Assembly (NCBI RefSeq): GCF_028279465.1
Contig: NZ_JANQNS010000013.1
Span: forward strand, 186,001 to 250,000
Origin: Parasphingopyxis sp.
Lineage (GTDB): Bacteria; Pseudomonadota; Alphaproteobacteria; Sphingomonadales; Sphingomonadaceae
Reading direction: 5' to 3'
Length of the DNA stretch: 64,000 nucleotides
This document shows positions 19,294 to 39,289 of this stretch, one piece after another. Numbering within the stretch: the stretch's first letter is position 1; each line of letters opens with the position of its first letter. The notes under the pieces were generated by a model. It worked only from the letters and a program-made list of their open reading frames with translations, was not told where the DNA came from and did no database searches. The position numbers and the translations under genes were made by a program.

Positions 19294-21099
19294 TCAGGTA
19301 TCGGGCGAATGTCGGAAATAGGACGCAGGCACCGGATCGATATCGTCGACTTCCATTACCTGTTCGCTCCGCAATACGATATCGCCCGACGCCGCGTTGA
19401 CGGCGATCACCTCATTGCGCCGCGGCAGGCCGATCAGCAGGCGATCGGCGCGCACGTCGAAGGCGATGCCGAGCGGGCGGGACGGCAGCGCAAAGTCGCG
19501 CCTGACTTCGCCCGTTGCATCATCCAACGCGACCAGGTTGGACGATGCGTTGTTGACCACCCATATCCAGCCGCGCTGTGCATCATGCGCGAGCCCGATC
19601 GGGAAAATGCCGCCGCTGTTCCAACATGCCGTGCGTGTCGGAGCCGCAACATCGACTACACAAACCTCTCCCGTCCCACCGTTGGTCACGAACACGCGGC
19701 TGCCGTTGCCGGTTGCCGCTAAACCTTCAGCCCCGTTTCCTGTGGCGATGAAATGGCTGTCTCCCGTATCCAGATCGATGAGGTCGATGCCGCCCGTGTC
19801 CGTATTGCTCGCGACAAGGATGGACCGGTCTTGTAGGAGCATCACCTTGTGCACACCGTTAGCCAACTCGAAGCGGCGCGTTTCCGCGAACGTCGCGCCG
19901 TCGAACTCGCGCACATGGCCTTCATTCTCGCAGGTGATCCAAAAGCGCTCGGCCTGCGCGGTTATCGCGGCGCCATGCGGTCGCTCGCACCCGTCCAGAG
20001 GGCGATGTGCGATTTGCGCGCCCGTGGCGAGGTCGACGATGCGAAATCCGTCGCTGCTCTCGCTCATCCACCGCATTTGCGACGGCTCGATAGGGTCTTC
20101 ATGCGGTGCCGGGAAAACACCGTGTGAGGGGACGAGCGCAAAGCGTCCATCTTCGCTGACGGCGACGTCATGCGGTCCGACGCCGGCCGGAATGCGTTGC
20201 GTTACGGCGAGTGTTTCCGGATCGAGCAAGACCAGCTCGCCGGCCGAGCGCGCCACGGCGGCTATCATCGGTGTTATTGGCTCCCATGTGCTGGGTTCGG
20301 CGGTCATAACATCGGCATCGTCGCCGCTGCTCTGCGCATAGGTCAGCGATCCATCGCTTAGGAAACGCGGCATAAGCTCGCTACCCACACCGTTGAGGCG
20401 TGACAGTGGCACTGCTGTGGTCCAGCTATCGCCCGTGCGGCGCGACACATACAGATCGCCCGATACGCTTCTATTGCCTGGCCGTTCTGACGCTTCGAAA
20501 ATCAGGCGCTCTCCATCCGGTGAGATCTCCAGATTCCATTCACCAAACTCCGAATTGATGCTGGCGGGCAGCCTCTCGACAGCCCAGGCCTCTGCCCGCA
20601 GAACGGCATGGTACAGGTCTCCGCCGCCTAGGCCCGGGCGATCAGAGGCGAAATAGAGCGAACCGTCCGGACGCAAGACCGGGCTATATTCGGTCGATTC
20701 CGAATTGATCGGTTCGGGCATTCTGGTCGGTGCAGCCCAACCGTCCCCCGCCCAGCGCACACACCAGATATCGATGTCGCCAGCCACCGCGCGATCGCTT
20801 GTAAAGCAAGCTTCTTCCCGTTCCGGCGAGAAATAGAAATCGCCTTCATCGGCTTCCGGATCAGCGAAAGACGGTGACCGAAGAACCGAACTCCCCGGCT
20901 CCGCGTAAAGAATTGCCGATCCCGCGTCGGTTGCCCATGGTCCGTCCAGCCGGGTGATATACAACCCGTCGGGACCTTCGCTCATCGATATTTCGGGCAA
21001 TGGACTGTTGAAATCCGGAACGTCGGCTTCGCTGCGATGGCATGACAGGGCCAAGGTCGATCCCAGGATAGCGAGCGTGAGGCCAGCCGGTACTTTCAT
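19294..21099 (-). CDS. Two-propeller lipoprotein (PD40/TolB-like plus YncE-like)
   Basis: The 601-residue protein begins MKVPAGLTLAILGSTLALSC, a lipoprotein signal with the lipid cysteine at C20. Residues 60-280 carry PD40-type beta-propeller repeats (YSPVLRPDGSLYFASDRPG, LEISPDGERLIFEASE). Residues 285-600 are a YncE-like propeller of surface or periplasmic type (VGPHDVAVSEDGRFALVP, GAEGLAATGNGSRVFVTNG, RPLGIAFDVRADRLLIG). The start at 21099 has AAGGA eight bases upstream, unlike the ATG at 21117. Such proteins usually bind partners or ligands; no substrate is evident. Confidence 0.8.
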   Translation of the reverse strand: MKVPAGLTLAILGSTLALSCHRSEADVPDFNSPLPEISMSEGPDGLYITRLDGPWATDAGSAILYAEPGSSVLRSPSFADPEADEGDFYFSPEREEACFTSDRAVAGDIDIWCVRWAGDGWAAPTRMPEPINSESTEYSPVLRPDGSLYFASDRPGLGGGDLYHAVLRAEAWAVERLPASINSEFGEWNLEISPDGERLIFEASERPGNRSVSGDLYVSRRTGDSWTTAVPLSRLNGVGSELMPRFLSDGSLTYAQSSGDDADVMTAEPSTWEPITPMIAAVARSAGELVLLDPETLAVTQRIPAGVGPHDVAVSEDGRFALVPSHGVFPAPHEDPIEPSQMRWMSESSDGFRIVDLATGAQIAHRPLDGCERPHGAAITAQAERFWITCENEGHVREFDGATFAETRRFELANGVHKVMLLQDRSILVASNTDTGGIDLIDLDTGDSHFIATGNGAEGLAATGNGSRVFVTNGGTGEVCVVDVAAPTRTACWNSGGIFPIGLAHDAQRGWIWVVNNASSNLVALDDATGEVRRDFALPSRPLGIAFDVRADRLLIGLPRRNEVIAVNAASGDIVLRSEQVMEVDDIDPVPASYFRHSPDT

Positions 21100-34343: not shown

Positions 34344-34346
34344 GGG

Positions 34347-35579
34347 CTAGTCGCTCCCGAGTTCCGCCCGCACTTCGTGCAATCGGCGGAGGCCCGCAAG
34401 CCAGCTGTCCAGTGCCGGGCGGCAGCTTTCCTCGGCCCAGCGGCATAGTCCGATCGTTTCCAACACTTCTTCATAGCGGTCGGCGAATTCCGGCATGCCT
34501 TCGGCGCGCAGCGCATCGCCGAAGATAGCCGCGACCTCCGGTTCCCAGTCGAACAGCTGGAAGACAGTCGCCGCGCGCAACTGCGGGTCTTCGGCGAATA
34601 TCCCGGCCATGTCTTCGAAGAAGAGCCGCTGATTGTCGGCACTGGCGCCCGTCCGGTTGGCGGCCGGATCGTCATAGCCGGCCGGACAGCCCAGTTCCTG
34701 GAAGAAAATCTCCTTCTGCCCGGCAAGGCCTTTGATCCGCTCGATTTCGGCGCGCCAGAATGCAGGATCGTCAGGGCTGCCATCGGCGCGCGAGCAGTAA
34801 AAATTGAACGACGCGATATCGAAAAGTGGCATCAGCGCGTCGACAAGCGCGCGGCTTTCGGGATCGACGGTGAAGGTCAGTGTGACGGCGAGGTCGGGAT
34901 CGAGGCGATTGGCCGTCGCCGCGCCGCGCGCGAAAAAATCATGCGCGGCTAAGGTCGGAATATCGGTATCGCGGATCGGGATATCGGCCTCATTGCCCAG
35001 TGCCAGGCCCCACACCTCTCGCTCGGTGAGGCGCGGCACGAGCCATGCCAGCAATGCTTCGAACCGGTCCAACAGTTCCGGCGAGTCGATGGTCAGCCCG
35101 TCCCGCAGCCCATCCGCGTCGTCCGACAGGTCTTCGGGGATCGTGAAGCCTTCGGAATCGAGCGTCGAGAGCGTTACGAACAGGCGAACATCGCCGCGGC
35201 CCGCGCGGTCCAGCACTTCGTCTAGCGCATCTGCATCGAACCGGCCCGGCGACGGTTCCAGATCGCGCCAATCGATTTGCGCGCGGCCGATCGTCATGCC
35301 CGCTGCGATCGCCGCGTCGCGCAGCCGGTCGGCACGATCGCGGCTTTGCGCATCGAACCGGTTGAAGCCATCGATCACGCCCATATGCGGACCCGGCGGC
35401 AAGCGTGGAATAGCGCTGGTCTGCGTTGGCGGCGCGGGAAGAGCGGGCGGGAAGTCCACGATTTGCGGTGCGGGCGGGGGTGGTGCGGCATCGCTGCCAC
35501 CGCAACCGGCCAAGGCGCTCGCGGTCAGGATTGCAGCGCCCTGGGCCAGCCGGATAGCGAATCGATATATCGTTACCAT
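34347..35579 (-). CDS. Predicted lipoprotein with a clan GH-A-like glycosidase domain
   Basis: The 410-residue protein has a lipobox (ASALAGCGG, lipid cysteine near residue 26), a proline-rich linker (residues 30-60) and then a TIM-barrel-like domain. WRDLEPSPGRFD, the acid/base candidate in LGNEADIP and the nucleophile candidate in FFQELGCP resemble clan GH-A glycosidases; no specific family is certain. There is no clear ribosome site before the ATG at 35579, which sits one base from the 19-bp dyad, so the mRNA may be leaderless. It is divergent from padR. Confidence 0.65.
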   Translation of the reverse strand: MVTIYRFAIRLAQGAAILTASALAGCGGSDAAPPPPAPQIVDFPPALPAPPTQTSAIPRLPPGPHMGVIDGFNRFDAQSRDRADRLRDAAIAAGMTIGRAQIDWRDLEPSPGRFDADALDEVLDRAGRGDVRLFVTLSTLDSEGFTIPEDLSDDADGLRDGLTIDSPELLDRFEALLAWLVPRLTEREVWGLALGNEADIPIRDTDIPTLAAHDFFARGAATANRLDPDLAVTLTFTVDPESRALVDALMPLFDIASFNFYCSRADGSPDDPAFWRAEIERIKGLAGQKEIFFQELGCPAGYDDPAANRTGASADNQRLFFEDMAGIFAEDPQLRAATVFQLFDWEPEVAAIFGDALRAEGMPEFADRYEEVLETIGLCRWAEESCRPALDSWLAGLRRLHEVRAELGSD

Positions 35580-35629
35580 GTAATACAGAGTAGCTTGCTA
35601 TCAGCGCGATGCAAGCTATTTTGTATTGC
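35580..35629. promoter_or_regulatory. 19-bp dyad overlapping mirror-image divergent promoters (padR / glycosidase-like gene)
   Basis: GTAATACAGAGTAGCTTGC (35580-35598) and GCAAGCTATTTTGTATTGC (35611-35629) match as an inverted repeat at 16 of 19 positions with 12 bases between arms. On the plus strand TTGCTA (35595-35600) and TATTTT (35617-35622) are a -35 and -10 with 16 bases between. On the minus strand TTGCAT (35614-35609) and TACTCT (35592-35587) mirror them with the same spacing. A regulator binding the dyad would control both directions; the PadR protein is the obvious candidate. Confidence 0.65.
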
Positions 35630-35660
35630 AGAGTAACGAACGTTGGTTAAGAGAAAGCGG

Positions 35661-36005
35661 ATGGATGCGAATGACGGCTGGACGAAACAGATGCGCAAGG
35701 GCACGGCGGAGCTCTGCGTGCTCGCCATTCTCGCGCGCCGCGAATCCTATGGCTACGAAATTCTCCAGCAGATTCGCCGCCAGCCATCCATCGCGCTGCA
35801 GGAAAGCACGCTCTACCTGCTGCTCGGCCGATTGCTGAAGGATGGGCTTGTATCGGCTCGGATGAGGAAATCGGGCGAGGGGCCGCCGCGCCGCTATTTC
35901 GAGCTGACCGCGCTCGGGCGGGAGCGGCTCGCCGATATGAGCGCTTTCTGGCACGGCTTTTCGGCCGATGTATCGGAACTCATCAAGGAGACGCCGGATG
36001 ACTGA
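35661..36005 (+). CDS. PadR-family transcriptional regulator
   Basis: The 114-residue protein is a PadR winged helix: LCVLAILARRESYGYEILQQI, STLYLLLGRLLKDGLVSARM, and PPRRYFELTALGRERLADM. The start at 35661 (ATG) is chosen; a TTG at 35643 is possible. PadR proteins are usually repressors that sense small molecules or membrane stress. It lies next to the 19-bp dyad and overlaps the following membrane-protein gene by 8 bases, so it likely controls this unit. Confidence 0.9.
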   Translation: MDANDGWTKQMRKGTAELCVLAILARRESYGYEILQQIRRQPSIALQESTLYLLLGRLLKDGLVSARMRKSGEGPPRRYFELTALGRERLADMSAFWHGFSADVSELIKETPDD

Positions 36006-36495
36006 ACTCGATCCCGCCGCCGAGCGCACGCTCGACCGGCGGCTCAAGGCGATTGCCAAACGGCTCGGCAAGGCCGGCCATGACGCCGAAGACATCGATA
36101 TCGTCGTCGACGGATTGCGCGAGCAGGTGCATGATATGATTGCGAGCGGCGACGCCGCAGATGCCGGCGCGATCGATGCCGCACTCGATTCGCTGGAACG
36201 ATCCGCCGACTGGTCCGAAGGGGCCGGCGCTGACTCCGGGCACGGTCTGGCGAAACTCGCGCTGGGAATCGCCTGTGCGACGGCTCCGGCAGCGATTATC
36301 GGCGCGATGATCGCGGACGCAATGGGCGGCGATGGCGGCGCGATATTGGTCACCACAGGCCTGGCCGGCTTCGCAGTCGCACTGATCCTGTCCGTGTTGC
36401 ACAGACGGACCGTCTATGGCCGCGCGGCATTCGTTCTCAGCACAATCGGGCTGGCGCTTTTTGTACTGCTCCTTATATGGTCCGTGATTGGCTGA
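35998..36495 (+). CDS. Membrane protein with N-terminal helical domain, partner of PadR
   Basis: The 165-residue protein has a soluble N-terminal half with a pattern like the PadR-linked permease-prefix helices (AEDIDIVVDGLREQVHDMI, IDAALDSLE) and three or four hydrophobic segments after residue 78. Genes of this kind commonly follow padR with overlapping frames, as here (8 bases). Function is unknown. The family is thought to take part in membrane-stress responses with its regulator. Confidence 0.75.
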   Translation: MTELDPAAERTLDRRLKAIAKRLGKAGHDAEDIDIVVDGLREQVHDMIASGDAADAGAIDAALDSLERSADWSEGAGADSGHGLAKLALGIACATAPAAIIGAMIADAMGGDGGAILVTTGLAGFAVALILSVLHRRTVYGRAAFVLSTIGLALFVLLLIWSVIG

Positions 36496-36602
36496 TAATG
36501 CAGTATTATACTTAAAAACAAAGCGTTAATGGTCGTCATCGTCTGCGGAATCTGAGCATCGAACTGCACAAACAGCGGCGGTGAAATCGTTTTCCGCTAC
36601 AT

Positions 36603-36671
36603 TTATGTTGCAGTGCACAAAAAACTGCTTGCAATCGCGCGAATCATCCTATATTGTGCAATGCAACATAA
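36603..36671 (+). promoter_or_regulatory. Phasin promoter bracketed by 18-bp inverted repeats
   Basis: TTATGTTGCAGTGCACAA (36603-36620) and TTGTGCAATGCAACATAA (36654-36671) are inverted copies identical at 17 of 18 positions. Between them lie TTGCAA (36629-36634) and TATATT (36650-36655), a possible -35 and -10 with 15 bases between. Each arm contains a TGCA-x-TGCA core like the sites bound by the PHA regulator PhaR in other alphaproteobacteria. This suggests PhaR control, but PhaR is not in the window. Confidence 0.6.
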
Positions 36672-37857: not shown

Positions 37858-39141
37858 ATGGACAGTATCGTTATCCGCGGTGGCAATCGCCTTTCCGGCA
37901 CACTCAAAATCTCCGGCGCGAAGAATGCCGTGCTCACGCTCATGCCGTGCGCGCTGTTGACCGATGAAATTCTGACGCTCGAAAACCTGCCGCGCCTCGC
38001 CGATGTCGACGGCTTTATGCACTTGCTGAACCAGCATGGCGCATCGACGATGCTCAAGGGCGCGCGCAATGGTGGCTTTGGCCGGGCGATGACGATCAAG
38101 GCCAAGGATATCGCATCGACCGTCGCGCCCTATGATTTCGTCCGCAAGATGCGCGCGTCGATCCTCGTACTCGGGCCGCTGGTCGCGCGGGCGGGCGAGG
38201 CGACCGTCTCGATGCCGGGCGGCTGCGCGATCGGCAATCGGCCGATCGATCTGCATCTCAAAGCGCTGGAGGCGCTGGGCGCGGAGATCGAACTGGCGGC
38301 CGGCTATGTGAAGGCGAGCGCGCCCGATGGCGGGCTCAGGGGCGGGACGATATCCTTCCCCGTCGTGTCTGTCGGCGCGACGGAAAATGCGGTTATGGCG
38401 GCCGTGCTCGCCAAGGGCGAGACGGTGATCGAAAATGCGGCGCGCGAGCCGGAGATTGTCGACCTGTGCAACTGTCTGGTTGCGATGGGCGCGGAGATCG
38501 AAGGGATCGGCACCGACCGGCTCGTCATCCACGGTAAAGACAGGCTGCACGGCGCGACCTACAGCGTGATGCCGGACCGGATCGAGGCGGGCAGCTATGC
38601 CTGCGCGGCGGCGATTACGGGCGGCGAACTCATGCTGTCCGGTGCGCGCGGGGCGGACATGCCGTCGATCATCGCGGGCCTGCGCGATGTCGGGCTGGCG
38701 GTCGAGGAGCTCGACGATGGCGTGAAGGTGACGGCCAATGGCCGGCTCGATCCGGCGACGATTTCGACCGCGCCGTTCCCCGGTTTTCCGACCGACATGC
38801 AGGCGCAATTCATGGCGATGCTGACGTTGGCCAACGGCACAAGCATGCTGACCGAAACGATTTTCGAGAACCGCTATATGCACGTGCCCGAGCTCGCGCG
38901 GATGGGCGCGGATATCGAGGTACGCGGGCGCACGGCGGTGGTGAAGGGCGTGGACGAGCTGGTCGGTGCGAACGTTATGGCGACCGATCTGCGCGCCTCG
39001 ATGAGCCTTGTTCTTGCGGGTCTCGCGGCAAAGGGCGAGACGAAGGTGCTGCGCGTCTATCATCTCGATCGGGGCTACGAACGGCTCGAGGAGAAACTCA
39101 GCGGCGTCGGCGCCGATATCGAGCGCGTCAGCGAGGGGTAA
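37858..39141 (+). CDS. murA: UDP-N-acetylglucosamine 1-carboxyvinyltransferase MurA
   Basis: The 427-residue enzyme has the active-site cysteine in [16 protein letters not shown], the N-terminal [20 protein letters not shown] and the C-terminal [19 protein letters not shown]. It transfers enolpyruvate to UDP-GlcNAc, the first committed step of peptidoglycan synthesis, in the cytoplasm. The cysteine form predicts sensitivity to fosfomycin. A large inverted repeat follows at 39151-39289. Confidence 0.97.
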
Positions 39142-39150
39142 GAGATTTTA

Positions 39151-39289
39151 TTGTCAGGATCTCCCTATCGGGAAATCGCGGCACCAGCCCTCTCCCCCTC
39201 CCGACCTCCCAACCAGGGTACACTCAATGGGAGGTCGGGAGGGGGAGAGGGCTGGTGCGGCGATTTTCCGCCAGGAAAATTCTGACAAA
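39151..39289. repeat. Large inverted repeat after murA (31-bp perfect stem plus nested hairpins)
   Basis: GCACCAGCCCTCTCCCCCTC plus CCGACCTCCCA (39181-39211) is repeated exactly in inverse at 39228-39258, a 31-bp perfect stem around a 16-base loop. The dyad continues with mismatches outward to TTGTCAG (39151-39157) and CTGACAA (39282-39288). The right outer arm holds its own 7-bp hairpin around GCCA (39263-39280). A single half-copy sits at 4930-4965. It may also stop transcription between murA and the convergent DUF445 gene. Confidence 0.85.

Follow-up and report, generated by a model that had tools for sequence, protein, structure and literature searches.

The window analysed here is a stretch of 64,000 nt from Parasphingopyxis sp. 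(assembly GCF_028279465.1, contig NZ_JANQNS010000013.1, positions 186,001-250,000). It contains a gene of a PadR-family repressor and a gene of a lipoprotein, which are read away from each other, and a symmetric intergenic sequence is situated between them. The features of this region are collected in Table 1.

Table 1. Genes, symmetric elements and predicted promoters of the padR/lipoprotein region (positions in the window)
Feature	Position	Strand	Remarks
Lipoprotein gene, 410 aa, predicted clan GH-A type (beta/alpha)8 glycosidase	34347..35579	-	from model and alignment
PadR box A, TACCATGTAATACAGAGTA	35574..35592	.	best motif match in 64 kb, 17.7 bits; self-complementary 7/9
Dyad	35580..35629	.	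19-nt arms, 16/19 paired, spacer 12 nt
Predicted lipoprotein promoter, TTGCAT-16-TACTCT	35587..35614	-	start expected at ~35580; hexamers at chance level
Inner PadR half-site, TAGCTTGCT	35591..35599	+	7.7 bits; holds most of the plus-strand -35
Predicted padR promoter, TTGCTA-16-TATTTT	35595..35622	+	start expected at ~35629; hexamers at chance level
Inner PadR half-site, TAGCTTGCA	35610..35618	-	9.3 bits; holds most of the minus-strand -35
PadR box B, TATTTTGTATTGCAGAGTA	35617..35635	.	second-best motif match in 64 kb, 16.1 bits
PadR-family repressor gene, 114 aa, ATG start	35661..36005	+	PF03551, 69.1 bits (cut-off 27)
Gene of a 165-aa membrane-type protein	35998..36495	+	start overlaps padR end; helices: three N-terminal, three long and of membrane type

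The three genes and their distribution

The repressor corresponds to PadR proteins of the PDB (best 2.9e-22) and, over almost its full length, to cdPadR1-like proteins; PadR-s2 proteins have about 110 aa and a single C-terminal dimerisation helix. The helix layout of the 165-aa protein was taken from a low-confidence model (pLDDT 62). This layout and the gene position resemble those of HAAS/DUF1700 proteins linked to PadR, and comparison with Pfam gave no relevant match up to E 10, HAAS/DUF1700 included.

No family match was found for the lipoprotein in Pfam and NCBIfam. Its model (pLDDT 84.6) is a (beta/alpha)8 barrel and is closest to GH5_18 structures (Z 26.8 over 307 residues, 3.1 A, ~11-17% identity). 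Residues N196-E197 and E295 are invariant in an alignment of eight relatives and agree with the Asn-Glu pair past strand 4 and the Glu of strand 7 which, together with the barrel, mark a clan GH-A glycosidase; the lipoprotein is predicted to be one. Its relatives are rare and patchily distributed (Erythrobacter, Woeseia, Polyangiaceae, Halochromatium), and no further ones were obtained at E 1e-25 in up to 694 more genomes of the class and phylum. The protein may represent an unclassified glycosidase family.

The three genes form a block at 34344-36600, inserted between phaC and the phasin gene. Within the genus, it was found in this species only: neither padR nor the lipoprotein gene was detected in the nine congeners searched, and in eight of them phaC is followed directly by the phasin gene. 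The divergent pair of padR and a GH-A-type lipoprotein gene also occurs in Erythrobacter sp. YT30 (identity 53% for PadR and 42-45% for the lipoprotein, with the membrane protein also present) and in a contig of a Woeseia MAG (51% for PadR and 41-42% for the lipoprotein), and the neighbours of the block are different there. As it was not found in the nine congeners and has other neighbours elsewhere, the block behaves as a small movable cassette. No second copy was found among the congeners of YT30 (114 genomes), and a first scan of genome contigs with PadR alone gave no match. In the Woeseia contig (L051:1-437), the membrane-protein gene after padR looks frameshifted, with two overlapping frames; this frameshift may be a sequencing error.

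Dyad, boxes and predicted promoters between the divergent genes

A previous reading of the sequence alone had described here a 19-bp dyad with 16 of 19 positions paired, and it is indeed present, with the arms GTAATACAGAGTAGCTTGC (35580-35598) and GCAAGCTATTTTGTATTGC (35611-35629). The symmetry can be followed further, into arms of 29 nt (35570-35598 and 35611-35639) with 24 of 29 positions pairing. Dyads of at least 16/19 with a spacer of up to 40 nt were found at ten further places in the window, so such a dyad is not rare by itself, and the distinguishing mark of the one at 35580-35629 is its content, not its symmetry. The strongest dyad of the window, a long, almost perfect inverted repeat of CACCAGCCCTCTCCCCCTCCCGACCTCCCA with its mirror, is located at 39181-39258, directly after the ORF 37858-39141, and may be a terminator or a small mobile repeat.

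A palindromic motif was learned from the upstream regions of related padR genes, of which 19 promoters were left after the removal of near-duplicates; the own locus and both syntenic counterparts (YT30 and the Woeseia MAG) were held out of the training. The motif is 19 bp long and reads TACCTTGCA-n-TGCAAGGTA. Over the 64 kb, boxes A and B took ranks 1 and 2, and the third match reached only 12.6 bits. Shuffling the 101-bp region 1000 times gave top scores of at most 13.9 and second scores of at most 6.8. Each box is an imperfect 19-bp palindrome, and the two are 43 bp apart; box A overlaps the predicted minus-strand -10 and the lipoprotein gene start, and box B the predicted plus-strand -10 together with the position where padR transcription is predicted to begin. 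A scan with the half-motif detected six half-sites of at least 6 bits within 62 bp (two per box and two inner ones), such half-sites occurring about once per kb elsewhere. In the own 3.3-Mb genome, a search for the box pattern at 0-1 mismatch returned boxes A and B only; as the pattern was derived from these boxes, only the absence of further copies is informative.

Two other observations concern the motif itself. The fourth-best site of the window is TCGCTTGTAAAGCAAGCTT at 20795-20813 (10.8 bits). In the padR promoters of one genus (six loci), two or three tandem boxes with a 2-bp overlap and a 17-bp period are present, an arrangement which suggests cooperative binding.

The PadR encoded next door had been named as the likely binder of the dyad, and this assignment is well supported, since the held-out motif puts both boxes first and second in the window. 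It also agrees with the structurally solved cdPadR1 of Clostridioides difficile, a PadR-s2 protein which, as gel shift showed, needs TACT(N11-12)AGTA and binds it in its own promoter, where two such boxes are present (PMC5050560). The matching architecture here is TACC-N11-AGTA in box A and TATT-N11-AGTA in box B; that one end of each box is perfect and the other imperfect relative to TACT/AGTA counts against the reading as a PadR operator. Instead of a single binding site, the dyad region holds two palindromic boxes and two inner half-sites.

Both counterparts also have an intergenic box pair, 41 bp apart in YT30 and 34 bp apart in Woeseia, which constitutes the top two motif sites of the locus. 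The second score was reached by 2 of 1000 shuffles for YT30 and by none of 1000 for Woeseia; in absolute terms, the YT30 boxes are weak (4.5 and 4.0 bits), and this counts against the operator reading. So does the varying spacing of 43, 41 and 34 bp, by which a fixed box geometry is not conserved. No box pair was found at five lipoprotein relatives without adjacent padR. The search for the dyad in other genomes, proposed in the sequence-only reading, recovered the box pair in YT30 and Woeseia, but the extended symmetry is weaker in the former and was not seen in the latter.

The plus-strand -35/-10 pair claimed earlier and its exact minus-strand mirror, both with 16-base spacing, are present in the sequence at mirror positions around the centre 35604.5. 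They agree with the sigma-70 consensus at 8 and 6 of 12 positions, respectively. In dinucleotide shuffles of 101 bp, a plus-strand pair of at least 8/12 appeared in 84% and a minus-strand pair of at least 7/12 in all, and a standard promoter scan lists no promoter here. Because the hexamers are at chance level and the standard scan is empty, promoter significance by consensus match was rejected. The mirror pair is not independent evidence, as it is near-automatic once the dyad exists. The -35 of related padR promoters is formed by the left half of the box and is mostly TTGCAT; a TATA-like -10 follows at a spacing of 16-17 nt (best 17 nt). Since this TTGCAT lies inside their box, the predicted hexamers gain support, and the minus-strand pair fits the same pattern with the same -35 hexamer. 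Of the two mirror-image promoters, the positions are therefore plausible by homology, but the hexamers are not significant by themselves. A further point against the operator reading is that the box of the relatives lies over the -35 and the boxes here cover mainly the -10, so that the blocking of the promoters would differ in details. The predicted promoters overlap by 20 bp (35595-35614), and their -10 elements (35587-35592 and 35617-35622) do not form the shared symmetric -10 of a bidirectional promoter.

It had also been suggested that the lipoprotein transcript may be leaderless. Its ATG at 35579 lies 7 nt past the minus-strand -10, and no Shine-Dalgarno-like sequence was found ahead of it. 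Across species, the commonest distance between the -10 and the start is 6 bp, and more than 80% of the sigma-70 promoters of Novosphingobium (Sphingomonadales) are without the final T of the -10 (PMC8407463). With this commonest distance, minus-strand transcription would begin one base ahead of the ATG. In several related padR genes the start codon is situated 5-8 nt past the -10, and 119 leaderless transcript-gene pairs were reported in Zymomonas mobilis (PMC7566282). Near-leaderless expression of the lipoprotein is plausible in the own genome, but it is not a conserved feature, because both counterparts have a Shine-Dalgarno-like sequence before the likely start (GAGGAG in YT30, AGGAAA in Woeseia). 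For the predicted padR mRNA, the leader would be about 32 nt long.

Alternative explanations of the symmetry

The symmetry could go back to the inverted duplication of a single promoter-operator, by which the second promoter arose; the boxes would bind PadR and the extended symmetry would have no separate function. Such an origin is favoured by the symmetric flanks of the boxes in the own genome (6/6 directly inside, 4/4 directly outside) and by the weakening or absence of the extended symmetry in the two counterparts. The inner symmetric part, however, is explicable by function, since it scores as PadR half-sites and overlaps both -35s. In our opinion, this history is possible, if somewhat unlikely, and it is compatible with a PadR operator at this place.

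It is very unlikely that the dyad works as RNA, that is, as a long hairpin of a plus-strand transcript serving as attenuator, terminator or processing site. In fact, plus-strand RNA of 35570-35639 folds at -40.2 kcal/mol (z -10.3), and the three mismatched positions of the 19-nt arms become G-U pairs; the fold of the minus strand is less stable (-29.1). But the dyad is not followed by a run of T, no terminator was called, and the predicted padR start leaves the left arm out of the mRNA. Moreover, the Woeseia counterpart folds not clearly better than shuffles (z -1.4), many related padR promoters are single-box and without such a hairpin, and the motif test accounts for the content of the dyad without RNA.

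Another regulator, for example PhaR of the surrounding PHA genes, might bind the dyad, as the cassette is flanked by phaC and the phasin gene and its boxes look similar to PhaR sites. Particularly, the third match of the PadR motif (36652-36670, 12.6 bits) forms, together with 36604-36622, a pair of PhaR-type sites with the cores TGCAGTGCA and TGCAATGCA, which flank the TTGCAA -35 of the phasin promoter (36604-36670). Both sites carry the published PhaR core YGCRNYGCR (PMC12542648), and congeners in which no padR was found show them at their phasin gene as well; they are therefore not PadR sites. This core is missing from boxes A and B (TGTAATACA and TGTATTGCA), which were found only beside padR. 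PhaR was rejected as the binder of the dyad, and binding by some other regulator of this kind seems highly improbable. The arrangement of the phasin promoter resembles that of the phaP promoters of S. meliloti.

A chance dyad in an AT-rich intergenic stretch, with no regulator, would agree with the ten other dyads of the window and the chance level of the promoter hexamers, but it is hardly credible in view of the held-out motif ranking and of the box pairs that two other genomes have.

Proposed switch and known systems

Taking PadR as the binder, it may be concluded that 35574-35635 is most probably a shared operator of the divergent pair, through which PadR represses its own operon and the gene of the glycosidase lipoprotein via two sites. 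The boxes, the half-sites, the gene order and the recurrence with PadR in three genomes are taken from the sequence, and from these we infer binding, repression, an inducer and the transcription starts. PadR dimers would occupy boxes A and B. Of the two back-to-back promoters, each would be covered at its -10/start region by one box, with the -35 elements of both situated in the inner half-sites. The bound PadR would exclude RNA polymerase from both promoters and would silence the padR and membrane-protein operon together with the outward-facing glycosidase gene. PadR would be released by an inducing signal, which may be a small lipophilic compound or may come through the membrane protein, and both transcription units would then be switched on together. 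Because the predicted promoters overlap by about 20 bp, polymerase would probably be on one of them at a time.

Autorepression by PadR and repression of the glycosidase gene are proposed by analogy with the cdPadR1 boxes and the Listeria LltR operon. The likeness to the cdPadR1 operator consists in two palindromic TACT(N11-12)AGTA boxes with an AT-rich core in the padR promoter, one cdPadR1 box lying over the -35/-10. In contrast, both boxes are ahead of padR alone there and one box belongs to each divergent promoter here, and the core here is TGTAWTRCA. The operon repressed by LltR in Listeria is that of LltR itself and contains the DUF1700 membrane-protein gene lmo0600 (PMC6624303). Common to both systems are a small multi-span membrane protein encoded after the PadR repressor and autorepression, which at the present locus is proposed, but the Listeria locus has no divergent glycosidase gene, and the membrane protein here has no DUF1700/HAAS match in Pfam.

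The proposed switch is also similar to the tetR-tetA divergon of Tn10, in which repressor and target genes are divergent, the promoters overlap, two 19-bp palindromic operators are present and co-induction takes place. That system differs in the TetR family of its repressor, in operator sequence and spacing and in its target, an efflux pump. At the bidirectional promoters of Escherichia coli, symmetric DNA gives divergent RNAs, the orientations of polymerase are mutually exclusive, and the autorepressor AcrR can block both (PMC12825309). Symmetric DNA with divergent, mutually exclusive transcription is likewise predicted here, but those promoters share one -10, whereas the predicted -10s of this locus lie about 25 bp from each other, and the overlap is in the -35 regions. 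PhaQ, a PHB-responsive PadR repressor (TIGR02719), belongs to the same family and adjoins PHA genes. The repressor studied scores 25.7 bits against the PhaQ equivalog cut-off of 139.35, and its cassette is inserted into the PHA locus and has other contexts elsewhere.

The locus would be an ordinary kind of switch, a PadR autorepressed divergon, and this kind is already known. A more special arrangement, which we consider rather doubtful, would be a symmetric 62-bp PadR operator of six half-sites whose inner half-sites double as the -35s of two promoters that exclude each other, one being leaderless; repressor binding and the choice of polymerase orientation would then be coupled within a small movable regulator-glycosidase cassette.

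With this analysis, this group of PadR regulators gains a likely operator and, in the predicted surface glycosidase of unclassified GH-A type, also a likely target. The locus offers a natural divergent switch of compact form, whose sites can be tested. Should the inner half-sites serve both as -35 elements and as repressor contacts, the same bases would belong to promoter and operator.
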